From Owenia fusiformis (Eukaryota; Annelida; Polychaeta; Sabellida; Oweniidae), in contig CAIIXF020000008.1 of NCBI GenBank assembly GCA_903813345.2, forward strand, positions 14,678,822 through 14,742,821: a stretch of DNA of 64,000 nucleotides, written 5' to 3'. Shown piece after piece: positions 27,601-52,300 of the stretch. The translations under genes were made by a program, and so were the position numbers. The notes beneath the pieces are model-generated. The model had not been told where the DNA came from, made no database searches, and was given only the letters and a program-made list of their open reading frames with translations. Every line of letters begins with the position of its first letter. Within the stretch, counting starts at the first letter, position 1.

Positions 27601-30600
27601 GAATCAGATCTATGGGGTTGAAAAAATTACAAGCAATGTGTACAATTGACCTACCTATCTATTCCTTACAATCTCAAATACAATATCTCCCAAAAGATTC
27701 ATGCTACGTTATAAATTGGTGAAGTTATAATGGATTATAAGTCCAAAAATGAGTGAAAAATGTTTAAATTCTCTCAAATAACTAGAGGTTTAAGATTGCA
27801 AGCAATCTTAAGGAGGCCCTGTAGGCGTTTTTGGCAATTTCAAGGTCAGCCAAAGGTCGAATCTCAAATCTAGGGTCATATATTAACACCAGGCGACTTG
27901 TAGATGATTTTTAAAAAAAAGTTTGGTCAATTTGAAGCAACTTGAAATTTAGTCTTGAAAAGTTTGGAAATTTGACCTTTTTTCAGTTTTTGAGTCCTAA
28001 TATCTCAAAACTGGTACACAATTTTAATAAATAGTCAATTGCTAATATGTGTAGAACCTATAGAGGAATATATATCCTGACTTTCATGAACAAATATTGA
28101 TTTGTAGTCACCAAAACTTAGAAACTTCGAAAACACAGTTGGTGATTTAATTTGAAGACTTTGACCTTTGATCTTGCAAATTTTACTTTAATTGACCTCA
28201 GTTGGTCTTTTGTGATCAAATATACCTAAATTTGAATCAAGAAAATCGATTTAAAAAATCAACTTTTTTTACCTTCCGAAGGTCACTGAAGGTCAACCAA
28301 AGGTCAAAGGTCAAAAGTAAGGTCAGATTTGGATTCCTGAGATCTTGTAGATGCTTTTTAAAAAAAAAGTTTGGTCAATTTAGAGCAAGTTGAAATTTAG
28401 TCTTGCAAAGTTTCGAAATTTGACCTTTTTTTCAGTTTTTGAGTTCTAATATCTCAAAACTGGTACACAATTTTAATAAATAGTCAATTGCTAATATGTG
28501 TAGAACCTATAGAGGAATATATATCCTGACTTTCATGAAAAAATCTTGATTTGTAGTCACCAATTTTGAGAAACTTGGAAAACACAGTTTGTGATTTAGT
28601 TTGATGACCTTGACCTTTGACCTTACAAATTTTACTTTTTTAGACCTCAGTGGGTCCTTTGGGATCAAATATACCTAAATTTGAATCCAGAAAATCAATT
28701 TGAAAAATCAACTTTTTTTACCTTTCGAAGGTCACCAAAGGTCAACCAAAGGTCGGAGGTCAAAATTTAGGACATATTTGAGTTCCTGAGATCTTGTAGA
28801 TGATTTTAAAAAAAAATCTGGTTCATTTGAAGCAAGTTGAAAAATGACCGATTTTTGCCGTTTTTTGACGTCAAATATCTCAAAAACGGTAAAAAATTAA
28901 CGCGTACATATTGTGAGCAATTTGTAGAGAATGCTTATATCTAGTTACATTTTAATTCATCGCAAGAAATAATGAAGTATGAGGACGAAATCTGAGAAAC
29001 TTAAAAAAAAATTTGATTTGACCTAGATTTTGACCTTTGACCTTGACCTAGATAAAAAGTTCTTTCCCCCAAGTTCAGCCAAGGTCCCTGAAAGGTGCAT
29101 GTAGGAGATGGTTGAAAGGTAGTTGGAAGTAGGAGAAAAGGGTTTAGGAAGAATAAAGAATAACTAGAGGTTTAAGATTGCAAGCAATCTTAAGGAGGCC
29201 CTGTAGGCGTTTTTGGCAATTTCAAGGTCAGCCAAAGGTCAAATCTCAAATCTAGGGTCATATATTAATATATTAACACCAGGTAACTTGTAGATGATTT
29301 TAAAAAAAAAGTTTGGTCAATTTGAAAAATCAACTTTTTTTTACCTCCGAAGGTCACTGAAGGTCAACCAAAGGTCAAAGGTCAAAAGTAAGGTCAGATT
29401 TGGATTCCTGAGATCTTGTAGATGCTTTTAAAAAAAAAGTTTGGTCAATTTAGAGCAAGTTGAAATTTAGTCTTGCAAAGTTTCGAAATTTGACCTTTTT
29501 TCAGTTTTTGAGTTCTAATATCTCAAAACTGGTACACAATTTTAATAAATAGTCAATTGCTAATATGTGTAGAACCTATAGAGGAATATATATCCTGACT
29601 TTCATGAAAAAATATTGATTTGTAGTCACCAAAACTTAGAAACTTGGAAAACACAGTTTGTGATTTGGTTTGATGACCTTGACCTTTGACCTTGCAAATT
29701 TTACTTTTTTAGACCTCAGTGGGTCCTTTGTGATCAAATATACCTAAATTTGAATCCAGAAAATCAATTGTAAAAATCAGTTTTTTTTACCTTTCGAAGG
29801 TCACCGAAGGTCAACCAAAGGTCGGAGGTCAAAAGTAAGGACATATTTGAGTTCCTGAGATCTTGTAGATGATTTTTAAAAAAAATTCTGGTTCATTTGA
29901 AGCAAGTTGAAAAATGACCGATTTTTGCCGTTTTTTGACGTCAAATATCTCAAAAACGGTAAAAAATTAACGCGTACATATAGTGAGCAATTTGTAGAGA
30001 ATGCTTATATCTAGTTACATTTTAATTCATCGCAAGAAATAATAAAGTATGAGGACGAAATCTGAGAAACTTAAAAAAAACTTTGATTTGACCTAGATTT
30101 TGACCTTTGACCTTGACCTAGATAAAAAGTTCTTTCCCCCCAAGTTCAGCCAAGGTCCCTGGAAGGTGCATGTAGGAGATGGTTAAAAGGTAGTTGGAAG
30201 TAGGAGAAAAGGGTTTAGGAAGAATAAAGAATAATAACTAGACATTTAAAATCGCCACGGGGGCGATTTCGTAGAATGCCGTTCCTCGCCGCAGCAGCAA
30301 ATTCGGTGCACAATTGACCTTTTTCAAGGTCACGCAGAGGTCGAATTCTAAAACCACAAGCATATTTAGAATCAGGGACATCCATACTTCATACTTGCAA
30401 AGAATTGGAATGAAAATCACCCAAATTATAAACCCTAGAGATATGTTAAATGGGAAGAGTAAGGCATGCAAAAAATAACTACAGTGGCTCCTTTAACAGG
30501 TAAAACAAGAAATAAGTTTTACGTCATTTTTAGGTGAAGGTCAAAGGTCAAGGTCAAAATGTTGACCTAATTTACTCTAGTTTAGTACAGTGTAATACAA

Positions 30601-31302
30601 TGGTACCAATTTCGAATCAATTTTAGCAATTTAACCTTTTTGACCTTTTCAAGGTCACCCGGAGGTCAAATTCCAAAACCACAAGCATATTTAGAATCAG
30701 GGACATCCATACTTCATACTTGCAAAGAATTGGAATGAAAATCCTAGTTTTCAACTTTGAGGTCATTTGAAGGTCAATGTCAAAGGTCAAGGTCAAGGTC
30801 AAAATGGTGACCTAATTTACTCTATCCGAGTACAGTGTAATACAATGGTACCAATTTGGAATCAATTTGAGCGATTTTGATTTTTGAACTTGTTGACCTT
30901 TTCAAGGTCACTCAGAGGTCGGATTCCAAAACCGAAAGCATATTTGGAATCAGGGGCTTCTATTCTTTATATCTGCTCAGAATTGGGATCGGATACACAG
31001 TTTTCAAATTTTGCCCCACTGGGGTGCCCCATTTTTCAAATTTGGGGCACCCAATTTTAAAACCCGGAATATATGTGAAATGGCAATTGTGAGGGATGGC
31101 ATATCCAAATTTTGGGTAAAAAATAAAAATGGTTACTCCTTGTACGTGCAAAAATGTAAAAATTTGCGATTTGACCTTGGCTAATTAGGGAGGGGCTAAT
31201 TAAAAAAATGAAGGCATTTCCCTGTAGCCCAGGAACATGTCAAGGTTGATGGTATATGCTAATTAGCTGACATGCCGGTGTGTGCGGAGAAATCTTGCGT
31301 GG

Positions 31303-31334
<32 letters not shown>

Positions 31335-34300
31335 TAAGAAAAAGGCGAAAACTATAGAATGCCGTTTCTTCGAAACCGGCATTCTAATAACTAGAGGTTT
31401 AAGATTGCAAGCAATCTTAAGGAGGCCCTGTAGGCATTTTTGGCAATTTCAAGGTCAGCCAAAGGTCAAATCTCAAATCTAGGGTCATATATTAACACCA
31501 GGCAACTTGTAGATGATTTTAAAAAAAAAGTTTGGTCAATTTGAAAAATCAACTTTTTTTACCTTCCGAAGGTCACTGAAGGTCAACCAAAGGTCAAAGG
31601 TCAAAACTAAGGTCAGATTTGGATTCCTGAGATCTTGTAGATGCTTTTTAAAAAAAAGTTTGGTCAATTTAGAGCAAGTTGAAATTTAGTCTTGCAAAGT
31701 TTCGAAATTTGACCTTTTTTCAGTTTTTGAGTTCTAATATCTCAAAACTGGCACACAATTTTAATAAATAGTCAATTGCTAATATGTGTAGAACCTATAG
31801 AGGAATATATATCCTGACTTTCATGAAAAAATATTGATTTGTAGTCACCAAAACTTAGAAACTTGGAAAACACAGTTTGTGATTTGGTTTGATGACCTTG
31901 ACCTTTGACCTTGCAAATTTTACTTTTTTAGACCTCAGTGGGTCCTTTGTGATCAAATATACCTAAATTTGAATCCAGAAAATCAATTGTAAAAATCAGT
32001 TTTTTTACCTTTCGAAGGTCACCGAAGGTCAACCAAAGGTCGGAGGTCAAAAGTAAGGACATATTTGAGTTCCTGAGATCTTGTAGATGATTTTAAAAAA
32101 AAATTCTGGTTCATTTGAAGCAAGTTGAAAAATGACCGATTTTTGCCGTTTTTTGACGTCAAATATCTCAAAAACGGTAAAAAATTAACGCGTACATATA
32201 GTGAGCAATTTGTAGAGAATGCTTATATCTAGTTACATTTTAATTCATCGCAAGAAATAATAAAGTATGAGGACGAAATCTGAGAAACTTAAAAAAAACT
32301 TTGATTTGACCTAGATTTTGACCTTTGACCTTGACCTAGATAAAAAGTTCTTTCTCCCCAAGTTCAGCCAAGGTCCCTGGAAGGTGCATGTAGGAGATGG
32401 TTGAAAGGTAGTTGGAAGTAGGAGAAAAGGGTTTAGGAAGAATAAAGAATAACTAGATTTGTGAAATTGAACAAGTTCAATTTAAGACTCCAGATTTATT
32501 TGACCTAGATAGATCAGTAAAGAGCTGAGTAAGTAACTGAGTAATTAGCTGAGTAAGTACCTTAGTAGTAGTTGAGTAAGTAGCTGAGTAAGTAACTGAG
32601 TAAAAAGCTGAGTAGGTAGCTGAGTAAGTAGCTGAGTAAGTACCTGAGTTAGTAGCTGAGTAAGTTGCTAAGGAAGTAATAACTAATTAAGTAATTGAGT
32701 AAGTAGTCAAATAAGTAGCTGAGTAGGTAGAGAGGTAAAGTAGGGTATGCAGGAATTTTTGAAAGTATATTTGATCAATCTGCATCGTGAATACTGGCAA
32801 GTGCGAATTTCAAACTTCAAAATGGCGTAGAATCTAAACCGGGGGTCGGATTGCAATTTTAATTTCAGATCCAGATTCCTGAGGAAATTCTACCCCTAAT
32901 TCATAACTCATACTTTAAAATTGGAGAACTTTTTATTTTGACCTACATTTCGGACACCATATCTCAAAAGTGGGTCAAAAAACTTATTGACGGCAAAATG
33001 TTACCATTATTAGCACACTCTTTGCTACAAGTTTACAAAATTTCGGAGAATATCATTGAAGTGTAGTGTCAGAATCGCAAAATAAAAAAAACTATGAATT
33101 TGACCTAGATTTTGAACTAGGTATTTTGGTGTCCAAACTTTGAAGGAAAGTAGCTTTTGAGGTCCCCTTCTTCTATGGGCTTTCATTATGTTTAGCTGTA
33201 CTCATTCTATATCTCGTATTTTCAAAAAATTATTCGGTCCCATTGATTTAACATGGGGCACCAAATTTAGCGATTTTTGAGATTTTAAAACGCCATAACT
33301 TCAAAACAAGTAGTCGGATCGAAATATGGTTTGCAGATCTAGATTTCTGAGAAAATTCTTCCCTTAATTCATAACTCATACGTTAAATTTGGAAATTTTT
33401 TAACTTTGGCCTACTTATCGGACACCATATCTCAAAAGTGGGTCAAAATACTTTCTGACGGCAAAACGCTAACACTATTAGCATACTCTTTGCTACCTGT
33501 ATACAACATTTTAAAGCAAATCATTAAAATATAGTGTCAGAATCGCAAAAATAAGGGAAAACTATAAATTTGACCTAGATTTTGACCTAGGCATTTTGGT
33601 GTCCAAATTTTGGAGCTAAGTAACCTTCGAGGTCCCCTTCTTTAATAGGCTTTCATTATATTAAGCTATACTCAGTCTATAACTCGTAATTTACACTTCA
33701 AAAAAATCTTTTTTCCCATTGACATAACATGGGGCAGCAAATTTAGCGATTTCTGAGCTTTCAAAACACCATAACTTCAGAACAGGAGGTCGAATCAAAA
33801 TTTGATTTGCAGATTCGGATTCCTGATAAAATTCTACCCCTTATTCATAACTCATACGTTACATTTGAAGATTTTTTATTTTGACCTACTTTTGGGACAC
33901 CATATCTCAAAAGTGGGTCAAAATACTTTTTGACGGCAAAAGGCTAACACTATTAGCACACTCTTGGCTACATGTATACACAATTTCGAAGAATATAATT
34001 AAAGTGTAGTGTCAGAATCGCAAAAATAAGGAAAAGCTTTGAATTTGACCTAGATTTTGACCTAGGCATTTTGTTGTCCAAATTTTCAAAATTAGAAGGT
34101 TTTGAGGTCCCCTTCTTTTATGGGCTTCCATTATGTTTAGCTGTACTTAGTCTATATCTCGTATTTTACACTTCAAAAAAATATTTTTTCCCATTGACAT
34201 AACATGAGCACCAAATTTAGCGATTTTTGAGCTTTCAAAACGCCATAACTTCCGAACCGGAAGTCGGATCGAAATTTGGTTTGCAGATTTGGATTCCAGA

Positions 34301-37300
34301 GAAAATTCTATCCTTAATTCATAGCTCATACGTTAAATTTGGAAACTTTTTATTTTGACCTACTTTTCGGACACGCCATAACTTCCAAACCGGAAGTCGG
34401 ATCGAAATTTGGTTTGCAGATTCGGATTTCTGAGAAAATTCTATACTTAATTCATAACTCAAACGTCAAATTTTGAGAATTTTTTATTTTGACCTACTTT
34501 TCGGACACCATATCTCAAAAATGGGGCAAAATACTTTCTGACGGCAAAAGGCTAACACTATTAGCAGACTCTTAGCTACATGTATACAAAATTTCGAAGA
34601 ATATAATTAATCTGTTGTGTCAGAATCGCAAAAATAAGGAAAAACTTTGAATTTGACCTAGATTTTGACCTAGGCATTTTGGTGTCCAAATTTTGAAGCT
34701 AGATGGCTTATGAGGTCCCTTTCTTTTAAAAGGTTTTATTATATTTAGCTGAACTCAGTCTATATCTCGTATTTTTCACTTCAAAAAAATCTTTTTTCCC
34801 ATTGACTTAACATGGGCACCAAATTTAGCGATTTTTGAGCTTTCAAAACGCCATAACTTCCGAACGGGAAGTCGGATCAAAATTTAGTTTGCAGATTCGG
34901 ATTCCTGAGAAAATTCTACCCTTATTTCATAGCTCATATGTTAAATTTGGAGAACTTTTTGGTTTTGACCTACTTTCAGGACGCCATATCTCAAAATCGC
35001 TAAGAGTAATCAAAAAACGGATGGCACACTCTCGATTTGTTTTTTTCTAAGCTACATGTAGAAACTAAGATGAAGTAGTTACGACAAACAACAACGAAGA
35101 TAATTGACAGAATGTTGATTTGACCTTGATTTGACCTAGTTCTTGACCCTTGACCTAGATAAAAATTTGACCTAATTTCCCATCATCCCAGGAACTGCCC
35201 CTAGTTGATCATGTAAGCAGCTTAAAGTAAATTCTTTTAGTTGGTGAGAAATCTGGGAAGGAGGAAGATTCTGAAAGAATAATAATAATAACTAGACATG
35301 TAAATTGAACAAGTTCAATTTAAGACTCCAGATTTAAAACTTTTTATAAGCTGAGTCATCCAAAATACTGTAAGCTGAGCCATTCAGAATAAGCTGAGTC
35401 ATCTACAATACAGACATTTAGACAACTCTTAAGTAGCTTATCTTCGTCTACATTGGCTTAACATGGGGATATCATAATATCGACTTTTCGAGACTTCAAA
35501 CAGCTATAACTATCTAACCAGAATTTGGGTCGAAATTTGGTTTGCAGATTCGAATTTCTGAGAAAATTCTACGTTTGTGTCATAACTCATACATTAAATT
35601 TTGAGAACTTTTTATGTTGACCTACTTTCCGGACGCCATTCCTCAAAATCGGTAAGAGTAATCAAAAAAGACAGTTACAATAATGAAAGGACTGTCTTTA
35701 AGCTACATGATGAAAAAAAGATAGGAATAACGACGAATAGTGACAAAGATAATTGACATAACATGGGATATCAAAATACCAATTTTTTAATTTTTCAAAA
35801 CGCCATTACTTCCAAACCAGGTGTCGGATTGAAATTTGATTTGCAGATCCGGATTCCTGAGAAAATTCTACCCTTACTTCATAACTCATACGTTGAGACG
35901 GAAATCCGTTGAATAAATTCGGATCGTTGCCGGATGATACCATTCCTACAAATGGCAAAGCAGAACTGAAAGCTTGTATAGAAGCTCTGCGTATATGCAA
36001 GGACGAAAATATAACCCATGTACAGATTTTCTCTGATAGTGAATACGTGGTTAACGGGATTTCGAAATGGATTCCAAATTGGATAAAAAAGGGATGGAAG
36101 CTTTCAAATAACAACCCTGTGAAAAATCAAGATCTTTGGAAAGAACTTAACACCTTGACCAAACTCAAAACTAAAATCAAATGGACACTCGTCAAAGGAC
36201 ATGCGGGGATTCATGGCAATGAAGAAGCCGACCGACTGGCAAGGAAGGGCTGCATAGCCAATGTCGTTGACAAAGGAATAACTGAAGAAGAACAGTTAGA
36301 TTTGGTTGCAGCTGATACATGTGATACAGATTCTACCGTTTGTACGATTTGTGAGGACTCCAACTCATCCAATATGTTGACATGTAATTGCTGTAAAATG
36401 AACATTCATTATACGTGCTCTAAGTTACCAGCCTATCAGATCCTGCAATACATCAAAAAGAAGAATAAAAAATTCATCTGTGACTTGTGTACCAGCGATA
36501 AAGACAGTGATATTGAGATTCTTTTATCTCAGTCTGATAATCAACAAGAGGACCTAGTTCAGAATATAGATGACTTGATATCTCCAATAAGAAGCTCCCA
36601 GAACCAAAAGCAATCTATCCATCTTCAAACCAACGTCGTTGAAGAATTAAAATCCATATTTGTTGGTAGATTTGATCGTCTGGAATCGGAGTTAGAGCGG
36701 TTAATCAACGAGTCGAAAAGGGATAACGGGGCTAAACAGTCATACAAAGAAGAGAAAATCAAGCTAGAGGCGGTTCTATTTGAGAAAAACTCACAAATAA
36801 AGTTGATGAAAGAATCATTACAGAATAAGGATGAAGAAATCAAAGAGTTAAAAGCTAGAATGCAGGCTATAGAGTCCAAAAATAATGATGCGCTAATGGG
36901 ACTCACGGAGACGACTAAACAAATGAAATCCGAGATAAAAAATCTACAAATAAAAATAGACGTGAAAAATGAAAAACTGATTACGAACCATTTAAATGAT
37001 TCGATTGATCTGCAAACAGATGTCACAATGGGGACAAATGCTTCAACAAATCCTATTTCCAATGAATCAGCGGATACGAGCAAAAAAGAAGAACTAACCA
37101 ACGCATTTGTACCACGCGTTTCCAGTAGGTCAACTCCACGTAGAGGAATACGCAGAAATGTCGAGAATAGGAATTCAAATCGTCAATACCGCGATAGTGT
37201 TTTGATAATTGGTTCGTCACTGATTAAAAATCTACAGCCGGGAAAACTAAGCAGTAGGTTTGATTCATATAAGTATACCGCTTATACGATTGAAGAAGCG

Positions 37301-40300
37301 TCGGATGTTGTTTTGGGTATCAAAGAGAAATGTCACCCAAATGAAAGTCCAAGCTGCATAGTTTTTCAAGTCGTTTCGAATGATCTTAAATTTCTGAGCG
37401 TCGACGCGTGTATTAATCGAATGAATGGTCTTACAACTCTCACTAAAGAGCTATTTCCAGAAACGAAAGTACTCATATCGCTAGCACCAAATAGGGGAGA
37501 TTCGGAAGAGCGTAACAGCAAAACAGAGTACATAAATGAGTACTTTTGGAACAGATATAACAAATCCCACGATATTAGAATTATCGATAATACAAATCTG
37601 TCGTTTTCAGACGGTAGTATCATTCCACGATTCTTCAGTGCAGACAGGGTTCACCTTTCCGAGCAAGGAGAGAGGAGACTCTTTAACAATATTAAATATG
37701 CTATAACCAAGTGCCTTTATTAATACAGTCAATATTCGTTGAACTGAAAGTGTGTAATCGTAAAATATTGGATTTTAGTATCGCTGTATAATTATTGTAT
37801 CATTTATTCATAAAATCAAAAATATGTAATTGTAACCATTTGAAGTATGCGGTAATGGATATGGTTAACTTGCGTCTAATTTCACTGTGATTACGCATGT
37901 AAAATATTGAGATTTGTTCATACGGATACTAATCAGCGAAATGTTACTTTCTAGTCTAAAACTAGCTCATTGGAATGTCGAAGGACTTTTTGACAGGAAG
38001 AGAGAGATGTATAAGTACTGTGATGAGAATTTTGTAAAGTTTATACACGGCTTTGATATAATCGGCTTAACAGAAACTCATGGTGATTGTGATACTGCGA
38101 TATGCGTTCCAGGGTACAAACAGCTGATAAATAATTTTCGGGAAAAATCAGCCAATGCAACGAAAAATACAGGTGGTGTTACGTTTTTAATCAGCGAATG
38201 TGTTTTAGATGGTGTTAAGGAGGAACCAATAACTCATAATGATATAGCATGGTTAAGATTAGATAAAAATTTCTTTGGATTTGAAAATGATTTATTTTTA
38301 GCAGTTGTATATATCAATCCGAGTAATTCATCATTGTCTATGGGACAGGTTGTTGACAAATTCGACATTCTTACTGAACAAATAGCAAAATATTCAAAAT
38401 GTGGGAACGTTCTTATTTTAGGAGATTTAAATAGTAGATTTGGAATTGGAAATGATTTCATAGTCGAAGATGATGAAAAATACGTCCCCGTCTATCCGGA
38501 ATATAACAATGATTGTGATTCAAATCTACTTAATCGCTTTAATAAAGACAAAATCATTAACACACAAGGACGACAGCTGCTTGAACTATGTAAATCTTGT
38601 CAAATGAGAATTGTGAATGGGCGGAAAATTGGTGATTTAGAAGGTAGTCTTACATGTCATAAATATAATGGAAGTAGCACGGTTGATATAGCGCTGGCGC
38701 AATCGGAAATCATGCATAACATATGTACATTTAAAGTGCATGATTTTCAAGGAAACCTTTCTGATCATTGTGCCATTTCTTTGTTATATAATTCTGAATT
38801 TAGCAGAATTTGCAAACATAAAACGAGGAAAAGTAAAGTCTATACTCAAACTCCATTACCTCCGAGATATATCTGGTCTTCAGAAAAAAGCAAAGATTTT
38901 CACGACCAATTGAAAATCGAGATTACAAATAAACGCAGCCTGTACGATATGGATCATAATAGTAATGCAGATGATATGTTAAATAACTTAACTAAGTGTA
39001 TGCACAATGCTGCGTCCAATACGCTTGAAAAGAGGTTCGTCAGACATAAGAAAGGAAATAAACAAAAACGATGTAAAAAGTGGTATAATTTATCGTGCAA
39101 GCAACTGCATTCTGAAGTTCGAAAATTAGGCAAATGTTTACAAAATGATCCCACAAATCCTTATAAAAGAGGTATGTTCTTTAAAGTGAAAAAGGTTTAT
39201 AAAAAACGATGTAAACAAGCTAAATATCAATATAAAGCGGAATTAATTGAAAAGCTTGAAAACGCTAGTTCTACAAATCCAACTGAATATTGGAATTTAA
39301 TAGACAAACTAAAAGAGCCTGGTTCGAGAGTCACTCAAGACCGCGTTGAAATTAACGAATGGTTAGAATACTATTATAAATTACTTAACACGACCGACAT
39401 ATCAAATGTTGAGATTTCTTCTCGGATCGAGGAGATGCGAAAAGAACCATTCTTTTCAGAGTTAGATTTTGAGATTAAACAATCAGAAATCGAGACAGCA
39501 ATTAAAGGCTTAAAAAATAATAAAGCATCTGGTTTGGATATGATTTCGAATGAAATGGTCAAAAGTACCAAATCATTAATACTGCCATATTTGAAAATAA
39601 TATTTAATACAATATTAAATTCAGGAAAATATCCGGCAAGTTGGGGAGAGGGATATATCACTTCAATTTTTAAAAGCGGAGATCCTAGAAAATTATCAAA
39701 TTATAGAGGTATAACAATTAACAATGTGTTTGGAAAAATATTTAGTTCAGTATTGGATGCACGATTGCAGGTTTTCATAAATCATAATAATATTATGAAT
39801 AAAGCTCAAATAGGATTTCAGAAGAAAGCACGAACAGTGGATCATATCTTTATTATCAGAACGCTTCATGATAAATATGTTAAACATTTAAAATCTCCTA
39901 TTTATGGAATATTCATTGACTTTAGAAAGGCTTTTGACAGCGTTTGGAGGGAAGGTCTTATGTATAAACTTTTGTCAGTTGGTATAAAAGGAAAGTTTTT
40001 TGAAATCGTTAGAAAAATGTATCAAGATACCAAAATATGTATAAAAAACAGTATTTCAAATAAGAGGACTGAATTTAGAAAAGTGAATGCTGGTGTTAAA
40101 CAAGGGGATCCAATGTCTCCCACACTATTCAATTTGTTTTTAAATGATCTGCCAGCGGTTATAGGTTACAATGACGCACCAATTTTACAAAGTTCAAAAG
40201 TAAACTGTTTGATGTATGCTGATGATGTTCTACTTTTGTCTTTGAGCAGAGATGGACTTCAAAAGTCTATAGATAATCTTTCAAAATATTGTAAAGACTG

Positions 40301-43300
40301 GCATTTGTCAATTAATTTATCGAAAACAAAAATAATGAAATTTATTGGAAATGGTAGAAAATGTACAGAAAATTTTTATTTTGATGGGGATGAGATCGAG
40401 ACGGTAAAATCATATAAATACTTGGGTTTGACCATAAGTAGTTCAGGTACGTTTAGTAAATCCAAGAACTATCTGTATGACCGAGGATTAAAGGCAATTT
40501 ATAAAATAAAAAGGTCACTAGGCGATACAAGTTTAAAACCTTCAATAGGAATAAAGATTTTTGAACAATTGGTAGTTCCAATAATCTTATATGGATCTGA
40601 AATATGGGGCATGTCGAATTACTTTTCTACAAAAGATTTGAATGAATGGTTTACAAATGGCAGACGATTTCCATCTGAGAAACTTCTGTTATCTTTTTGT
40701 AAATATATTCTTAAAGTAAATAAAAAATCAACAAATTTAGCAATTTATGGAGAGCTTGGGAAATACCCACTATATATAAATATATTCAAACAAGCTACTA
40801 ATTTCTATAATCACATGTTAAATACGCCATACATCTTATTATCAGAAGCACTTACTACATCAAATGACTTATCAAAGATCAACAAGTCATCGTGGATGCT
40901 GAATTTTAAAAGTGTAATGGATAAATTAGAGGTAGTATCATTTTCAGGAAATACTCCCAGCAATATCAATAATACTTTAGATGTAAAAGAATATACTATT
41001 GACGCATCCGAAGTTGTTTGTAAATCAAAAATTAGTTTTGAAGATTATTGGCGAAATCAATTGAATTCCGACCAATGTCGCAAACTGAATACATACAAAA
41101 TATTTAAAAGCAATTTCAGGTTCGAACCATATTTAGATTCAATTTCAAATGGGCATTTACGACGAAGTCTAACAAAGTTTCGTATCAGTAACCACAAATT
41201 AAAAATAGAAACGGGTAGATACGAACGCCCAAAATTAAAGATCGATGAAAGAATTTGCGAGGTTTGCAATTTAATAGAAAACGAAAAACACATAATGCGT
41301 TCATGTAAAAAATACAGTATATATAGAAAGAAAATGCTCGATAAACTTGTATCACACGGCAACCCAATTAAACACCTTTTCAACATGGAGGACGATTCAC
41401 TTTTTTTCCAATATTGTATGTCTTGTGAAAATAAAGAAATTGAAATTGTAGCAGAATTTATTCATAAATGTAATATAACATAGAAGGGTGTGATATATGA
41501 CATAAACAATGGACGCGTATCACAATCACCATTCATGTGCTTATCCATGATGCATATTTATTTGTTCATTTATTTACTTATTTATTCATTATGAAGTGTT
41601 AATTTTGTGTGTTGTTATATATACTGTTTTCTGTTGTATTGATATATTGTAAAATTAGTGTTTACTTTGTGTACACTTAACCTTTTATGGGTATGAATGT
41701 GTAATAAAGTTCATAAATCTAAAATCTACGTTAAATTTGGAGAAACTTTCATGTTGACCTACTTTTCGGACACTATATCTCAAAAGTGGGTCAAAATACT
41801 TTATGACGGCAAAAGGCTAACACTATTAGCACACTCTTTGCTACCTGTATACAAAATTTTGAAGCAAATAATTAAAGTGTAGTGTCAGAATCGCAAAAAT
41901 AAGTTAAAACTATAAATTTGACCTAGATTTTGACCCAGGCATTTTGGTGACCAAATAGTGAAGCTAGCTAGCCTTTGAGGTCCCTTTCTTTTATAGGCTT
42001 TCATTATGTGAAGCTGTACTCAGTCTTTATCTCGTATTTTACACTTCAAAAAAATCTTTTTTCCCGTTGCCATAACATGGGGCACCAAATTTAGCGATTT
42101 TTGAGCTTTCAAAACGACATAACTTCCAAACCAAAAGTCGGAATGAAATTTGGTTTGCAGATTTGGATTCCTGAGAAAATTCTACCCTTAATTCATAACT
42201 CATACGTTAAATCTGGAGAACTTTTTAGTTTGACCTACTTTTTGGACACCATATCTCAAAAGTGGGTCAAAATACTTTCTGACGGCAAAAGGCTAACACT
42301 ATTAGCACACTCTTGGCTACAGGTATACAAAATTTCGTAGAATATAATTAATCTGTAGTGTCAGAATCGCAAAAATAAGAAAAAACTTTGAATTTGACCT
42401 AGATTTTGACCTAGGCATTTTGGTGTCCAAATTTTTATGAAAAGAAGGTCTTGTGGTCCCTTTCTTTTATGGGCTTCCATTATGTTTAGCTGTGCTAAGT
42501 CTATATCTCGTATTTTACACTTCAAAAAAAAATAATTTCCTATTGAATTAACATGGGGCACCAAATTTAGCGATTTTTGAATTTTCAAATCGCCATAACT
42601 TCTGATCCGGAAGTCAGATCGAAATTTAGTTTTCAGATTCGGAATCCTGGGAAAATTTCCTATAAGACTGATATCCTGGACATTGGATTTGGAGAAATTT
42701 CTTTTGGACCTCGTTTTCGGACACTGATATCTCGAAATCGGTTTGAGATACTAAAAAACTAAATCGACCCTAGGTTTTCTACTTTTTTATGAGGAACACA
42801 ATGAAAAAAACCAGGATCAAAAATATTGAAGGACGACCGAGATAATGGGAAAAAGTGACAAAGTACCGGGTTTGACCTAGTTCTTGACCTAGTTCTTGAC
42901 CTTTGACCTATATAAAAATTTGACCTAATTTCCCAGAAAGCCGGATACAGTCTTATGTTAACCATGTAAGTTGGATTAAGTAAGCTGTTATAGTTGACGA
43001 GAAATTTGGTAAGGAGGAAGAAAAAAGAATAATAATAATAAGAAAACAGGCAAAAACAATAGACTCCAGATTTTCAATCTGGAGTCTAATAATAAAGAAA
43101 ACTGACGAAAGCAATAGACTCCAGATTTTCATCTGGAGTCTAATAATAACTAGACTTGGGAAATTGAACGAAGTTCAATTTCAGACTCCAGATCCAGACT
43201 TTTTTAAGCCCAGTCAATTAAAATAAGCCGAGTCATCCAGAATAAGCTGAGTCATCCAGAATAAGATGGATGGATAAAACAGGAAGGTAGGATAGGATAG

Positions 43301-46300
43301 AATGGGAAGGAACGATAGGATAGAATAAGAAAGAAGGATAGGATAGAACAGAATAGGAAGAAAGGATATGATAGGAGAGGATAGGAAGGATAGGAAGGAA
43401 AGGATACGAAGGAAGGATAGGATAGGATCAGATAGGAAGGATGGATGAATTTTTCAATATTTTCTTCTCTACTCTTGACTTTCTATCAGGATACCATCAG
43501 ATCGATTTTTCGAAATTTCAAAACGCCATAACTTCCGAACCGGAAGTCGGATCTAAATTTGATTTAAAGATTTGGCTTCCTGACAAAATTCTACCCCTAA
43601 TTCATAACTCATACATTAAATTTGGCGAATTTTTATTTTGACCTACTTTTTGGACACACCATAACTTCGGAACCGGAAGTCGGATCGAAATTTGGTTTGC
43701 AGATTCGGATTTCTGAGATAATTTTATTCTTAATTCATAACTCAAACGTTAAATTTGGAGAACTTTTTATTTTGACCTACTTTTGGGACACCATATCTCA
43801 AACGTGGGTCAAAATACTTTCTGACGGCAAAAGGCTAACGCTATTAGCACACTCTTGGCTACATGTATACACAATTTCGAAGAATATAATTAAAGTGTAG
43901 TGTCAGAATCGCAAAAATAAGAAAAAACTTTGAATTTGACCTAGATTTTGACCTAGGCATTTTGGTGTCCAAATTTTAAAGCTAGATGGCTTTTGAGGTC
44001 CCATTCTTTTAAAAGCTTTCATTAAATTTAGCTGAACTTAGTCTATATTTCGTATTTTTCACTTCAAAAAAATCTTTTTTCCCATTGACTTAACATGGGC
44101 TCAAAATTTAGCGATTTTTGAGCTTTCAAAACGCCATAACTTCAGAACCGGAAGTCTGATCTAAATTTCGTTTTCAGATTCGGAATCCTGAGAAAATTTC
44201 CTATAAGACTAATATCCTGGACATTTGATTCGGAGAACTTTTTTTTGGACCTCGTTTTCGGACACTGATATCTCGAAATCGGTTTGAGATATCAAAAAAC
44301 TAAATGAACCTAGGTTTCCTACTTTTTTATGAGGAACACAATGAAAAAAACCCGGATCGAATATATTGAAGGACAACCGAGAAAATCGAAAAAAGTGACA
44401 AAGTACTGGATTTGACCTAGTTCTTGACCTTTGACCTAGATAAAAACTTGACCCAATTTCCCACCAACTAGATACTGAACCTAAATAAACTGAATTATGG
44501 TCTTTACTGGATACCTTATAGTTATTGAAAAAAAGGCTACGGAATAATAAGAATAATAAAAATAATAATAATAAGAATACTGGCAAAAACAATAGACTCC
44601 AGATTGACATCTGGAGTCTAATAATAATATCTATAAAATCTATAGGAGGCCCCCTGTCGGGGGGCCTCCTAATAATAATATCTATAAAATTAATAGGAGG
44701 CCCCCCGTTGGGGCCTCCTAATAACTAGACTTTTTAAGATTGCAAGCAATCTCACGGAGGCCCTCTTAGGCATTTTTGACAAATTGAAGGTCAACTAAAG
44801 GACTAATATCAAATCTGAGGTCAGATGAGAACTCCTGAGAACTTGTAGATGATTTTCAAAAAAAGATTTTGTCAATTTGAAGCAAGTTTAAATTTGACCT
44901 TGAAAACTTTCGAAATTGACCTTTTTTCAACTTTTGAACTCTTATATCTCAAACTGGGACAAAATTCTATTAGATAGTCAATTGCTAATATGTGTAGAAC
45001 CCTTAGAGGAATGTGTATATTTCAACGTCAGATTAAAAATATTGGTTTGTAGTCTCGAACTTTGCGAAACTTAGATAGCACAGTTTGTGACCTAATTTCA
45101 TGATCTTGACCTTTGACCTTGAAAAGTTTTACTTTTTTAGACCTCAGTAGGTCTTTTGTAATTAGGCTGACTTAAATTTGAATCCAAAGACTCAATTTGA
45201 AAAATCAACTTTTCTTACCTTTCGAAGGTCATTGAAGGTCAACTAAAGGTCAAAGCTCAAATCTGAGGTCAGCTTTGGACTCATGGGAACTTGTAGATGA
45301 TTTTTTTAAAAAAAATTGGTCAGATTGAAGCAAGTTGAAAAATGACATTTTTCGACCGTTTTTTGACGTCAAATATCTCACAAACGGTAAAAATTTAATG
45401 CTGACATCTAGTGAACAATTTGTAGAAAATACTAAAATGTAGTTTCAGTTTAATTCATCGCAAGAAATAATGAAGTATAAGGACAAAGTTGAGAAACTTC
45501 AAAAAATATTAGATTTGACCTAGATTTTGACCTTTGACCTAATTTGATAACCGTGACCCTTGACCTTGAAAATATAACTGTTTTAGAGCTCAGTAGGTCT
45601 TTTATGCTTAGGCTAACCCTAAATTTGAATCCCAAAACTCGATTTGAAAAATCAACTTCTCTGACCTTTCGAAGGTCACTGAAGGTCAACTAAAGGTCAA
45701 ATGTCAAATCTGTGGTTAAATATGAACTCCTGAGAAGTTGTAGATGATTTTCAAAAAAAAAATTGGGTGAATTTGAAGCAAGTTTAAATTTGACCTTATA
45801 GACTCTGAAAAATTGACCTTTTTCAGTTTTTGAGCTCTTATATCTCAAAAGTGGGACAAAATTTTAATAAATAGTCAATTGCTAATATGTGTAGAACCCT
45901 TAGAGGAATGTATATCTTGACTTTCAATTAAAAATATTGATTTGTAGTCTTGAACTATGAGAAACTTAGATAGCACAGTTTGTGACCTAATTTGATGACC
46001 TTGACCTTTGACCTTGAAATTTTTACTTTTTTAGACCTCAGTAGGCTTTTTGTAATTAGACTGACCTAAATTTGAATCCAAAGACTCAATTTGAAAAATC
46101 AACTTTTCTGACCTTTCGAAGGTCATTGAAGGTCAACTAAAGGTGATAGGTCAAAACTAAGGTCAGATTTGAGTTCCTGAGATCTTGTAGATGCTTTTTA
46201 AAAAAAAGTTTGGTCAATTTAGAGCAAGTTGAAATTTGACCCTGAAAAATTTCGAAATTTGACCTTTTTCAGTTTTTGAGTTCTAATATCTGAAAACTGG

Positions 46301-49300
46301 AGCAAAATTTTAATAAATAGTCAATTGCTAATATGTGTAGAGCCTTTAGAGGAATATATATTCTGACTTTCAGTAAAAAAAGTTGATTTGTAGTCTCCAA
46401 TTTTGAGAAACTTAGAAAACACAGTTTGTGATTTCGTTTGATGACCTTGACCTTTGACCTTGCAAATTTTACTTTTTAGACCTCAGAAGGTCTTTTGTGA
46501 ATAAATATACCTAAATTTGAATCCAGAAAATTGATTTGAAAAATCAACTTTCTTGACCTTTCGGAGGTCACTGAAGGTCAACCGAAGGTCAAAGGTCAAA
46601 AGTAAGGTCAGATTTTGAATCCTGAGAACTTGTAGATGAGTTTTAAAAAAAAATTTGGTCAATTTGAAGCAAGTTGAAAAACGACCTTTTTTGACCGTTT
46701 TTTGACGTCAATATCTCAAAATCTAGACGAAATTTGTCTAGACGGCAAAAGGCTCACACTAATAGAATACTAATATCTATCTGTATGCAAAAAATCAGCC
46801 AAAAATGTTGAAGTGTAGTGTCAGGCTTTGAGAAACTTAAAAAAAGCTTAGATTTGACCTTGATTTTGACCTTTGACCTTGACCTAGATATGAAATATTT
46901 TCCCATCAAGATCAAACCAGGTATCTAGTAGGAGCATATAGTAGAAAGTTGAAAGCTAGTTGAAAGTAGGAGAAAACTGCTTTGATAGAATAATAATAAG
47001 AATAAATAAATAAAGAAAAGCTACAAAAGCTAAAAAAAAATTTGGTCAATTTGAAGCAAGTTGAAAAACGACCTTTTTTGACCGTTTTTTGACGTCAATA
47101 TCTCAAAATCTAGACGAAATTTGTCTAGACGGCAAAAGGCTCACACTAATAGAATACTAATATCTATCTGTATGCAAAAAATCAGCCAAAAATGTTGAAG
47201 TGTAGTGTCAGGCTTTGAGAAACTTAAAAAAAGCTTAGATTTGACCTTGATTTTGACCTTTGACCTTGACCTAGATATGAAATATTTTCCCATCAAGATC
47301 AAACCAGGTATCTAGTAGGAGCATATAGTAGAAAGTTGAAAGCTAGTTGAAAGTAGGAGAAAACTGCTTTGATAGAATAACTAGATGTATAAGATTGCAA
47401 GCAATCGTATAAAGATTGCAAGCAATCTTACGGAGGCCCCGTAGGCTTTTTTGAACATTTAAAGGTCAGCCAAAGGTCAAATCTTAAAAACAAGGACATA
47501 TATGAACTCCAGGCATCTTGTAGATGATTTTTAAAAAAAAGTTTGGTCAATTTGAAGCAATGTGAAATTTGACCTTGAAAAATTTCAACATTAGACCTTT
47601 TTCAGTTTTTGAGGTCCAATATCTCAAAACTGGTGCAGAATTTTAATAGATAATCAATTGTTATTATGTGTAAAACCTTTAGAGGAATATATATCCTGAC
47701 TTGAATTCAAAAATATTGATTTGTAGTCACAAACTTTGAGAAACTTAGAAAACACAGTTTGTGATCTTGTTTGATGACCTTGACCTTTGACCTTACAGGT
47801 TTTACTTTTTTAGACCTCAGTATATCTTTTCTGATTGAAGAAACCTAAATTTGAATCCATAAAATCAATTTGAAAAATTAACTTTTTTGACCTTTCGAAG
47901 GTCACTGAAGGTCAACTAAAGGTCATAGTTCAAAACTAAGGTCAGATTTGAGTTCCTGAGATCTTGTAGATGCTTTTAAAAAAAAATTGGTCAATTTAGA
48001 GCAAGTTGAAATTTGACCTTGAAAAATTTCGAAATTTGACCTTTTTTCAGTTTTTCAGTTCTAATATCTCAAAACTGGAGCAAAATTTTAATAAATAGTC
48101 AAGTGCTAATATGTGTAGAACCTTTAGAGGAATATATATTCTGACTTTCAGTAAAAAAATTGATTTGTAGTCTCCAATTTTGAGAAACTTAGAAAACACA
48201 GTTTGTGATTTCGTTTGATGACCTTGACCTTTGACCTTGCAAATTTTACTTTTTTAGACCTCAGTGGGTCTTTTGTGAATAAATATACCTAAATTTGAAT
48301 CCAGAAAATCGAGTTGAAAAATCAACTTTTTTGACCTTTCGGAGGTCACTGAAGGTCAACCAAAGGTCAAAGGTCAAAAGTAAGGTCAGATTTGGAATCC
48401 TGAGAACTTGTAGATGAGTTTTAAAAAAACATTTGGTCAATTTGAAGCAAGTTGAAATTTAGTCTTGAAAAGTTTCGAAATGTGACCTTTTTTCAGTTTT
48501 TGAGTTCTAATATCTCAAAACTGGTACACAATTTTAATAAATAGTCAATTACTAATACGTGTAGAACCTATAGAGGAATATATATCCTGACTTTCATGAA
48601 AAAATATTGATTTGTAGTCACCAAAACTTAGAAACTTAGAAAACACAGTTTGTGATTTAGTTTGATGACCTTGACCTTTGACCTTGCAAATTTTACTTTT
48701 TTAGACCTCAGTGGGTCTTTTGTAATCAAATGTACCTAAATTTGAATCCAGAAAATCAATTTGAAAAATCAACTTTTTTTACCTTTCGAAGGTCACTGAA
48801 GGTCAACCAAAGGTCAAAGGTCAAAACTAAGGTCAGATTTGAGTTCCTGAGAACTTGTAGATGATTTTAAAAAAAAATTTGGTCAATTTGAAGCAAGTTA
48901 AAAAATGACCAATTTTTACCATTTTTTGACGTCAATTATCTCAAAAACGGTAAAAAATTAACGCGAACATATAGTGAGTAATTTGTAGGGAATGCTTATA
49001 TCTAGTTACATTTTAATTCCTCGCAAGAAATAATGAAGTATGAGGACGAAATCTGAGAAACTTAGAAAAAACTTTGATTTGACCTAGATTTTGACCTTTG
49101 ACCTTGACCTAGATAAAAATTCCTTTCCCGGTAAGTTCAACCTAGGTCCCTAGTAGGTACATATAGTAGATAGTTGAAATCTAGTTAGAAGTAGGAGAAA
49201 AAGTGCAGAGAAGAATAAATAATAATAATAAAGAATAAAAAGAATAAATAATATCTATAAAATCTATAGGAGGCCCCCTGTCGGGGCCTCCTAATAATAA

Positions 49301-52300
49301 GAATAAATAAATAAAGAAAAGCTACAAAAGCTATAGGAGGCCCTTTCAGGAGGGCCTCCTAATAATATCTATAAAATCTATAGGAGGCCCCCTGTCGGGG
49401 CCTCCTAATAAGAATGGTAACCATTCTTATAGAAAAATAATACGTTATTGTAAATATCTTTAGTTTTTCTGAAATAAAGTATGCACTTTGGTGATTTTAG
49501 GAAAATAGACATGAAAGGAATGACATGAGCCAGAAATAGTTTAAAATTGAAACAATTTTTTGTTGGGCTGCTTGCTAGATCTGATTCTCTCTTTAATGCC
49601 AGAACATTGAAATTATCAAGGCTGACATGTGGCATTAATGTCTAAACTTAATACTGTACTTCTACTTAATGAAGTCTCTGCCAAATTCCGAAATTCTCTG
49701 GGATTCACACTGCATGATATTAACCACATTTTCTGGTGAACAATCTCTTTAAAAATCTGTTCAAAATCGTCACATATGTACAATAATAACAACATGTCCA
49801 TTCTCAACTTCATGTACTTTAAAGAACCAAAGACAATTAATAGTCAAACGAAAGTCAACAGATAGCATCAAGGATGTAATAAGTCAAGTGCATCCTTTGA
49901 AGTTCGCCAGATTTTTTAATATTGCAAATCTGCAAAAAAGTCCACGGTGCGGTATCCAAACTGTGCGCATACTATGCACGCAGTTTGAAACCCTGACAAA
50001 CTGCGCGCATATTTAAAAATGGCAGATGGGGAGGACACGACTCCCATAAGGATGAGAAGTACTGGAAATACAAATTTTTTTGTTTAATTTTGTTTATCAG
50101 ACATTACCTCAATCTCAATATATCTCAATATAAGGATCCTAAAGAGCTTTCATGTTCAAAATATACAGTGTTGCGTCATATAATGTCTGTTTGTCGTAAT
50201 TTGAAGTCTATTTAGCCCTTGTGTTGGTATATACTGAAAGATACAGGATTGCTGCATATAGTTTAAGTAATATAGTATTTTCTATTTCTGTGAAAAGTGT
50301 GACATCTTAACTTATGTGGCGGTAATCGAAAAACCGATGACAATTTTTTATTAAACTTCATATATTTAAAAAACTACGTTTATCTAGACATAACTTTCGC
50401 TATCACATGGTAGAACCATATAATTGCCACCGAATGGGCGTATGAAACTATAAAACAAGGCAGAATAAATGTCTTAAAATGACGTTTGAAAACACTTGTA
50501 TGATGCAATGTTGATATGCGCACAGTTTGTCAGTGTTACAAAATGCATGCATAGTATGCACGCAGTTTGGATACCGTGGGATGAAGTCTGCCAAATTAAG
50601 TAGCTGCCAAATGTTCAAAACAGCAAATCTGCCAAAATTAGAAGCGCCAAATTAAGTAGATGTACAGTAGATGTGGAAAAGATAATCTTATCCTTTGTTT
50701 TTTATCTACTTTTACAGAAAACATTGATATTTTTTTGATTAAGTCCCTAATCACTTTTGGAACATTTAAGTAAAATTAATATTGTGGAACTTTCCATTTG
50801 TATTTCAGACTTTAAAAGTTACCAAAACATCAAAAGCAAATTGCTATCTAAACTGTTTGATCTAAAAACATCTTCGTGACATATCTAACAAAATGGAAGA
50901 GTTTAGAAAAAAAGAAATGGAAAAGCTGAACATTGTTATGAACTCAATTATTTTCACACAAGATATGAACGAGTCCTCTAAAACAGAAGATGTTCTTGGT
51001 GATAAGATTCACCATTTTGTCAAGAAGGATATGGGTGCTACAGTCTTTTCTGGTAGTTTAGCAGAAGGTACTGCATTTCTAGGGATTAGTCTTGCAGAGG
51101 AAAGTAACTATGATATGCTTGATCATGTTAAGCGTTTTGATGTTGACATCATGTATGAAGATAAGGACTTCATAGCAATGGAACAATGTGAAAGTCTTGC
51201 CTCCACAATAGAATTTGTTAACATTATACATAAACTTGGTTGTGCTCCATTACTTATAAAACCTTCAGAATCTCAGAATTTGATGTGCGTTCGGATTGAT
51301 ATGCCAATACCAATAATGGATTTTGAGAGAATTGTGAAGGAAAAAGCCTCGAGTAGGAAAGAGGTAAAGATAGGTTGGTTGGAAATAAACGAATTCCAAA
51401 AAATCGAGCCAAGTAAATTGAAAAACTATACTGGACATTTTCGGTTGGTTCCAAAACTGTCACGTTCATATTTACTGAATTTTCTTACAAAGCTATCTTC
51501 AAATAAACATAAATGTGAGTGTAGATGGAAGAGTGGACATAATCGCTATGGGGATCTTTGTGATAATTGCAAGGCTGAAAGTTGCATAATGTTCCGTGAG
51601 AATGGAGTTACAACTGAAATTTGGACAGATCAGAGGCGAATAAGAGGCCCTGCTGTGAATGAAGTAGTGTTTATTGCAAATACAATTCATGAAATACCCT
51701 TTCCAAGACTGCATCTTGGACGCAATATAGGGAAATACATGTCAAGAGTGTATATAGACAGCAATATGGGGCAACCCTTGTCAAGAGTTGAAAAAATTGG
51801 TGAAGTTATTTACACGTCCAAAACCTGAAGGAAAAAGAAAGGTCAATGTGGGTGAGAATGTGCTCTACTCAACTCTGAGTAAATCAAGTTTATATGTGGA
51901 TCATGTGCCAGTTATAAGGTTTCTCAAATGGCCAAAGATTGCTAGAGACTTCATTGAACGGAACATCAAAAAAAGTGGTTGGCCAAATACAGCATTGGTC
52001 AAAAAAATTGTCAATTCTGGATGTCATCTTGTCCCCAGAAGTCCAGGCAAACTACCAGAAACATTGACAAAGATGAGCATAAGTCTGTTCACTGATACAA
52101 CAGAGTGTATTGACTGGAGTTGGTCCTTCTCACTGGCTGAAAAGCAACTTGTGTGGAGCCTGAATAGAACTCAGATTAGATGCTATCTTCTCTTGAAATA
52201 TCTCTACAAATTTTCTTGTGAGACAGATCCAGAAATGGTTTACCTGAAAGATGAGGAGTCAGAATATGATTTCAAGATTGAATTACAGTCATTTCATCTG

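Follow-up and report, generated by a model that had tools for sequence, protein, structure and literature searches.

A 64,000-nt window of the genome of the annelid Owenia fusiformis (contig CAIIXF020000008.1, positions 14,678,822 to 14,742,821 of the forward strand) contains, between its positions 27781 and 49410, an array of repeated elements of three families, G, S and I. An earlier note, made from the letters of this DNA alone, had proposed that the three families share one plan with different sequences, a head and a tail hairpin being tied together by a matched family word. We define the head as CTAGA (ACTAGA) followed by a perfect stem and the family word, and the tail as an AAT-rich run followed by a leader, a hairpin with the family word as its 5′ arm, and AATAA. 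There are nine heads and as many tail hairpins, at the coordinates of the earlier note, and their words match within each family (Table 1). A scan for stems found eight heads on the plus strand; its single minus-strand match, at 30581, looks like a chance one. The ninth genuine head, whose stem is duplicated, was found by a fuzzy scan. AATA directly precedes all nine heads and AATAA directly follows every tail hairpin. The CTAA that the note had placed after the hairpin is not a separate word: CT ends the 3′ arm and AA comes after it. A scan of the window for hairpins also listed the head stems and a few unrelated hairpins. ACTAGA by itself is not enriched in the window (38 seen versus 31 expected); it is the composite plan that counts. 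Folding as single-stranded DNA strongly backs three tail hairpins (−11.6 to −13.5 kcal/mol; z −6.1, −8.5 and −6.4) and, less so, three head stems, which fold more weakly (z −5.2, −2.0 and −2.7). The idea that structure is kept while sequence differs between the families is supported. No Rfam match was found across positions 27500–49700.

Writing each head as an opening bracket and each tail as a closing one, typed by family, gives the following order for the window: G( G( I( )I G( S( S( )S )S S( )S )G )G G( G( )G )G )G. As can be seen, each tail closes the most recent open head, which is always of its own family, and no module is left over; the probability that a random order of these 18 modules is balanced is 2.0e-4. 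Each nested element occupies the AAT-rich run beside the tail hairpin of an older element. The copies sit one inside the other like Russian dolls, the same short AAT-rich spot being used every time. This balanced nesting and the role of the AAT-rich run as insertion site are additions to what the earlier note had described. An internal tandem duplication of ca. 0.4 kb in G4 (46640–47380, by eye) copied the AAT-rich run and part of the tail leader, and in the G5 head the stem is present twice (47380–47430), the matching tail still being there.

Table 1. Elements of the array. Strand (−) is 5′ to 3′ by the Helitron2 convention, opposite to the strand on which heads and tails are read; head and tail would be the Helentron 3′ and 5′ ends, respectively. 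Own length is given without nested elements.
Feature	Position	Strand	Head (start)	Tail hairpin	Own length	Remarks
G1 (probable HINE)	27782..49408	-	27781-27818	49382-49406	1,431 bp	outermost, holds the other eight
G2	29164..44721	-	29163	44695-44719	1,126 bp	within AAT-rich run of G1
I	30238..31387	-	30237	31356-31385	1,150 bp	within AAT-rich run of G2; head word AGAATGCCG; nothing nested inside
G3	31391..44672	-	31390	44644-44670	1,119 bp	in G2, immediately after I
S1	32453..43143	-	32452	43116-43141	2,893 bp	within AAT-rich run of G3
S2	35292..43089	-	35291	43061-43087		within AAT-rich run of S1; holds non-LTR retrotransposon
S3	43150..44621	-	43149	44594-44619	1,472 bp	in G3, immediately after S1
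G4 (subtype a)	44725..49362	-	44724	49335-49360	2,724 bp	in G1, after G2; length counts an internal duplication
G5	47381..49294	-	47380	49268-49292		within AAT-rich run of G4; head with doubled stem
Uninterrupted copy of G4 run and leader	46984..47031	.				empty site for G5; arose by internal duplication

The whole genome (498 Mb in 525 contigs, at least 12 of which are 32–62 Mb long) was searched for heads and tails, with reversed patterns as controls; all counts are lower bounds. The G family has at least 504 heads and at least 462 tails (exact matches; 0 in both controls). For S, allowing one mismatch, there are at least 3,080 heads (0 in the control) and at least 2,917 tails (22 in the control), and for I, allowing three mismatches, at least 72 heads and at least 50 tails (0 in both controls). 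Head and tail totals are nearly equal for S and G and less so for I. An exact tail-to-head junction occurs at least 114 times versus 0 in the reversed control. Sixty of these 114 junctions were fetched and sorted by eye: 57 contain a hairpin tail and a G, S or I head or head relic, one (L048) is a G head without a hairpin tail, and two (L025 and L026) are chance matches. Further families with matched words, for which the earlier note had suggested a search, are absent from these 60 junctions.

When read on the minus strand, the elements begin with TTA|TTAG and a palindromic hairpin, followed by an ATT-rich microsatellite, the body, a second copy of the family word and a 3′ hairpin, and they end with TCTAG|TTATT. 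In this orientation the matched word would be the asymmetric terminal inverted repeat (ATIR) of Helitron2 transposons. As in Helitron2, hairpins are present at both termini, one ATIR lies within the 5′ hairpin at the extreme 5′ end, and the other is subterminal, upstream of the 3′ hairpin. The distance from the 3′ ATIR to the end is 29, 31, 35 and 51 nt in four window elements (51 nt in G5, with its doubled stem) and 24 nt in the coding copies described below, as read directly. As in non-autonomous Helentrons (HINEs), which carry a microsatellite beside the 5′ subterminal inverted repeat (subTIR), the AAT-rich run stands beside the tail hairpin in the printed runs. The earlier note knew of no described family with this design; on the opposite strand, the design is the published two-hairpin, ATIR-linked terminus of Helitron2/Helentron elements. 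We therefore adopt, with good confidence, a polarity in which the head is the 3′ end and the tail the 5′ end, and consider it very probable that G, S and I are HINEs of the Helitron2 type, with at least G mobilised by a long Helentron that has G ends.

A search with profile PF14214 retrieved 58 Rep matches. Two copies, A (C6:36035560) and B (C1:21115714), are 92–97% identical in large alignments over ca. 20 kb. The domain scan covered copy A, whose open reading frame (ORF) of 3,200 amino acids contains, in this order, OTU (PF02338, 2.7e-17), DUF6570, Helitron_like_N (PF14214), PIF1 (PF05970) and Exo_endo_phos (PF03372) domains, that is, the Rep, PIF1 helicase and C-terminal endonuclease of Helentrons together with their OTU domain. 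A Herpes_teg_N Pfam match (9.6e-9; L007:6035-6490, residues 593–744) adjoins the OTU domain and is possibly, at a guess, a second protease-like domain. A sequence search of the PDB with part of the Rep ORF gave no match at E 0.01. Long arrays of a ca. 154-bp repeat flank the ORF on either side in both copies (L007–L010, L097), as in oyster HINEs.

No head or hairpin was found in the first 20 kb around A and B, because the element is ca. 35 kb long. Copy B, the only one followed to both ends, is bracketed by a G head 20 kb upstream and a G tail 15 kb downstream, closing at C1:21130672. From the G head on, A and B are 96.8% identical over 2,094 columns, and upstream of CTAGA they have only ATAA in common. 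Their likeness continues past the G-like first 1.3 kb into non-G sequence at 97–100% identity with two indels, as far as the DNA fetched from A extends. Three different left flanks, those of A (C6), B (C1) and a third locus, C500, are followed by CTAGAAGATTGC...GGAGGCCC, with CTAGAAGATTGCAAGCAATCTTACGGAGGCCC directly after the flank; the left flank at C500 is another, directly adjoining G tail. At these three Rep-coding loci the element starts exactly at the G head. Three of the four Rep matches scoring 115.3–115.5 bits have a G head upstream on their own strand, at distances of 20.2, 20.4 and 25.7 kb; the chance of a G head of this subtype 18–26 kb upstream on the same strand is ca. 9e-4 per locus. 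A comparison of all 58 Rep matches with the 100 listed of 110 G heads of the subtype gave four within 30 kb, all upstream and on the same strand: A, B, C500 (25.7 kb) and C12, where the G head belongs to the G parent of an I-ended unit. I heads near Rep were found at C12 and on C3, where one lies 7 kb downstream of a Rep fragment. At three other Rep loci (L087–L092), the scan gave a few isolated stems and hairpins, none of them a CTAGA-stem head paired with a CTAA hairpin. The head side of copy B is matched by window element G5 at 96.7% identity (1,049 columns) and its tail side at 87.8% (1,406 columns). For the G family, then, the ends are those of an autonomous Helentron in the same genome, as expected of HINEs, and the Rep/helicase-coding relative for which the earlier note had proposed to look exists.

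The alternative that deserves most attention, though we regard it as unlikely, is that the elements are canonical Helitron1-like transposons in the head-to-tail direction, with 5′ CTAGA, a 3′ hairpin followed by CTAA, A|T insertion and a Rep ORF on the plus strand. The 3′ CTAA does fit the CTRR of Helitron1, the insertion is readable as A|T, and the Rep ORF lies on the strand on which heads and tails are read. However, Helitron1 elements start with TC and have neither a 5′ hairpin nor ATIRs (here and below, published systems are described from excerpts of the literature), whereas here the 5′ end would be CT (or TT) and hairpins at both ends are linked by ATIRs. The hairpin abuts the terminus rather than lying 10–12 bp inside it, and the protein has a C-terminal endonuclease and an OTU domain.

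We return to the Helentron reading and to the nesting of its copies. Arrays L011–L020 were picked from the G-hairpin matches, mostly for having several hairpins, and so were not chosen at random. Outside the window, bracket reading covered six arrays, each with added upstream DNA. One of them, L012+L083, contains two families and leaves no bracket open, its order being G( G( S( )S S( )S )G G( )G )G (chance 0.017). The seven S heads and seven S tails of L018+L082 are balanced (chance 0.125 for S alone) and are followed by two outer G tails; in L015+L081, three S heads and three S tails are balanced (chance 0.25) and four outer G tails follow. The heads for these outer tails lie beyond the DNA fetched, and just past L015+L081 the appropriate strand carries five exact matches to the G head (C2:11053077-11061081). 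In L013+L084 there is one outer tail too many. Subtypes agree (a with a, or b with b) in 17 of 18 G head–tail pairs (Fisher p = 4e-4).

The I and S families allow the nesting to be followed over longer distances. Genome-wide, 41 of 50 I tails have an I head upstream on the same strand within 40 kb, versus 0 when tail strands are flipped, leaving nine unmatched; 18 of the 41 distances are 1.04–1.24 kb and 23 are 1.5–27.5 kb, the latter being compatible with nesting. The S test covered the first 24.6 Mb of C1 with exact matches only (100 heads and 90 tails, after 10 of the 100 listed tails that lie past the last listed array were set aside). Here, 77 of the 90 tails were matched. In the 29 clusters of at least two modules, 10 tails remained unmatched versus 31.8 expected (minimum 18 in 20,000 shuffles), and 19 clusters were perfectly balanced versus a shuffle mean of 7.9 (maximum 17 in 20,000). 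The cluster at C1:22590003-22643105 has 24 S heads and 23 S tails over 53 kb, with one head left open.

These data bear on the view that heads and hairpins have nothing to do with each other, the hairpins being tandem repeats or separate insertions and the arrays a product of unequal exchange rather than of nesting. Tails do often stand in runs of 2–7, ca. 45–130 bp apart, and one array, L020, looks truly tandem-duplicated and lacks S tails. We nevertheless give this view very little weight, given the typed balance in the window and in L012, the subtype agreement of the G pairs, the pairing of the I tails against none in the control, and the fact that parent runs are continuous once nested copies are taken out. 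The random pairing of heads and tails of different families, which the earlier note had named as fatal to the matched-word model, was not found; the model survives this test, with exceptions such as L020+L086 and L011+L085.

The insertion site was determined from 34 resolved elements, a set that numbered 35 before one L017 relic without head coordinates was dropped; the set also excludes the L014 and L016 tails (no heads in the fetched DNA), the two tails of L020+L086 with the four heads left open there, and a single open head in L011+L085. The left flank is AA[T/G]AA (T in 29, G in 5) and the right flank, which is partly built into the tail search, is TAA, placing the insertion at AA[T/G]AA|TAA. 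The unpaired L011 head has the flank TACAA. In the I-tail search, the base after CTAA is T in 45 of 50 cases, A in three and C in two (by eye). All 27 nested copies lie 46–86 bp from the parent's end, the parents' own length being 0.8–5.9 kb, and the runs become continuous once the nested copies are removed. The parent at 7235 of L084+L013, for example, rejoins as GGAAGAA^TAAAGAATAA, which equals GGAAGAATAAAGAATAA of window elements G1–G3. In the window, positions 46984–47031 represent an empty site, because they are identical over 48 bp (by eye) to the joined flanks of G5 (up to 47380 and from 49295). Since the rejoined flanks are uninterrupted runs, a target duplication could comprise at most AA (TT when read on the opposite strand), which is not assignable to element or target. 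All 34 resolved elements have TT at either side when read on the minus strand, in agreement with the TT insertion of Helentrons; this TT may be duplicated, may be part of the element or may reflect a cut at A|T, as in proto-Helentron.

The lack of a longer duplication speaks against both ordinary target-primed retroposition and a duplication of, or crossover within, AATAA. If G, S and I were retroposons, they would be long SINE-like copies, moved by target-primed reverse transcription through a LINE that targets TAA repeats and recognises a 3′ stem-loop and AAT tail (LINE and SINE being long and short interspersed elements). A 3′ hairpin with an AAT microsatellite is similar to the tails of stem-loop LINEs and SINEs, and a LINE is present in the window. 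Yet 5′ truncation would make heads rarer than tails, which is the case in none of the three families, the rejoined sites have no target duplication beyond AA, and a Rep-coding DNA element has exactly the same ends; this largely contradicted possibility is, in our judgement, very improbable. We attach still less credence to insertion by a Crypton-like tyrosine recombinase with crossover in a shared AATAA: AATAA does flank most insertions on both sides, but 5 of 34 left flanks are AAGAA, removal of one AATAA fails to restore the parent where zero duplication does (GGAAGAA^TAAAGAATAA), and the coding copy encodes a Rep-helicase.

Several observations weigh against the interpretation of G, S and I as Helentrons in balanced arrays. 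Between head and Rep, the DNA read excludes 6.2 kb in copy B and 7.5 kb in copy A, and at C500 it comprises the head only; the continuity from head to Rep at these loci is suggested by the like distances, those of 20.2 and 20.4 kb supporting a single element. The tail of copy A lies outside the DNA fetched because A has additional copies of the repeat in that region. S ends were found on no coding copy, and a Rep ORF inside I ends occurs in a single, irregular case, a 27.5-kb unit on C12 nested in a G element (ca. 19506386–19535423; L093, L094). It has an I head at 19,533,986, an I tail at 19,506,439 and a Rep match in a frame of 3,164 amino acids; its I body stops at position 133 and is followed by DNA with a single-copy exon-like stretch, a degenerate G head and a satellite, 19.2 kb of the middle being outside the DNA fetched. 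This unit may represent gene capture, a secondary insertion or an autonomous I element. The Rep ORF lies on the strand on which heads and tails are read, which is the minus strand in Helentron polarity; such an orientation is known for a minority of elements, including Helentron-Da-40 of D. ananassae (PMC4067079) and elements of Danio, Chlamydomonas and some Fusarium. As for the nesting, L020+L086 reads G( G( S( )G S( )G and breaks the rule with two S heads without S tails; it looks like a tandem duplication, head and tail both repeating after 3,784 bp. In L011+L085 one head is in excess, and in one pair the subtypes disagree, an a-type tail closing a b-type head; this mismatch would disappear if the b-type head had lost its tail. 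Of the 72 I heads, 31 have no recognisable tail in reach, and only 7 of the 15 S clusters of at least four modules on C1 are perfectly balanced by exact matches.

By analogy with other Helentrons, the elements would transpose by a rolling-circle mechanism, and their membership of this group lends support to the rolling-circle type of end recognition that the earlier note had suggested. The protein of the long element (OTU, Rep, PIF1 helicase, endonuclease) would mobilise at least the G family. Rep would nick the TT/A|T junction and the helicase would peel off one strand; the 3′ ATIR could then pair with the 5′ ATIR, replacing the 5′ hairpin, so that the ends would be recognised and the strand released. 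The freed single strand or circle would enter an AAT-rich run, with a duplication of at most TT. New copies would land in old ones because each element has such a run beside one end, and arrays would grow as balanced brackets. What the sequence itself demonstrates is the anatomy of the elements, their matched ends, the nesting, the insertion site, the lack of a longer duplication and a coding element with G ends; the enzymatic steps, the strand that moves and the partners of S and I are inferred. Pairing between the head word and the 3′ arm of the tail hairpin, put forward in the earlier note as a switch, is not a new idea, having appeared in Bao and Jurka 2013 (PMC3627910) as a stop signal through ATIR pairing, and in the elements studied here it would be a plausible feature.

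One can tentatively propose that the microsatellite by the 5′ hairpin is an evolved landing pad and that the elements target their own kind, building balanced arrays of tens of kb, although we think this somewhat less probable than the contrary. A landing pad 46–86 bp from one end would leave the parent's terminal hairpins intact. If true, this would give a testable reason for the microsatellite of HINE and DINE elements and would suggest how long satellite-like arrays can arise from transposons. The searches made of the open-access literature gave no account of balanced nested Helentron arrays or of a bracket grammar, nor of Helitrons in O. fusiformis; systematic nesting into an element's own microsatellite at such a scale, and the bracket grammar, may be new. 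The design itself finds its place in a superfamily already described, and for one of the families a coding partner is present in this genome. Thousands of matched ends form an unusually clean natural record, in which the relative age of insertions can be read from the order of nesting. Paralogous empty sites for Helentron insertion are numerous, and a typed bracket grammar would give the insertion order from sequence alone.

Other features of the locus can be noted. A non-LTR (long terminal repeat) retrotransposon lies inside S2 (35897–41720); one of its ORFs has an RNase H domain and, by eye, PHD and SGNH-like parts, ORF2 comprises endonuclease and reverse transcriptase, and its ends show an apparent 6-bp TACGTT duplication (by eye). 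A short inverted repeat, AAGAATGGTAACCATTCTT (49408–49430, by eye), adjoins the right end of the array in the flanking DNA. Further on, a Mab-21-like gene occupies 51758–54733, its later part being a long degenerate repeat.

Among known systems, Helitron2 (Bao and Jurka 2013, PMC3627910) has the same hairpins at both ends, with an ATIR in the 5′ hairpin a few nt from the 5′ end and the other upstream of the 3′ hairpin, at a published distance of ca. 20–30 nt from the 3′ end compared with 24–51 nt here. Compensatory changes are seen there as well, and ATIR pairing is proposed to destroy the 5′ hairpin and so to fix the endpoint of replication. Unlike in the Helitron2 elements described in that paper, the protein here includes OTU and endonuclease domains, the insertion site is AAT-rich and self-nesting is massive. 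Helentrons, HINEs and DINE-1 (Thomas et al. 2014, PMC4067079; Yang and Barbash 2008, PMC2374699) share with the O. fusiformis elements a Rep-helicase-endonuclease partner with OTU, a palindromic subTIR 2–4 nt from the 5′ end, a 3′ subTIR (38–60 bp from the 3′ end in HINEs; PMC4067079) with a palindrome, a microsatellite by the 5′ subTIR, a TT insertion site and many non-autonomous derivatives. In DINE-1, the 3′ stems vary among species while pairing is kept, and a TT duplication has been proposed (PMC2374699). The O. fusiformis elements differ from these in the longer site AA[T/G]AATAA, the rarer ORF orientation and a microsatellite that receives further copies.

In the adopted polarity, the elements also resemble proto-Helentron-Pi of Phytophthora infestans (PMC4067079), an oomycete element of ca. 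14 kb with 5′ TT, 3′ CTAG, A|T insertion and no duplication; it is described as structurally nearer to Helitrons than to Helentrons, and the excerpt makes no mention of nested arrays for it. A title cited in the same paper concerns Helitron-like elements of Lepidoptera that form a family disrupting (GAAA)n microsatellites. Cg_HINE of the oyster Crassostrea gigas (PMC7492417) has a 5′ subTIR with a complementary inverted repeat and a microsatellite beside them, and a 3′ subTIR with a palindrome, and satellite-like repeats are carried by its Helentrons as well; its microsatellite is mostly tetranucleotide, unlike the one found here, and the excerpts do not mention nesting. A parallel for nesting is FoHeli of Fusarium oxysporum (PMC5148889), where self-insertion is proposed to have given several 5′ termini before one 3′ terminus and where ORF orientation is reversed in some groups; FoHeli, as described there, lacks the endonuclease, and its few self-insertions contrast with the thousands of modules in O. 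fusiformis.

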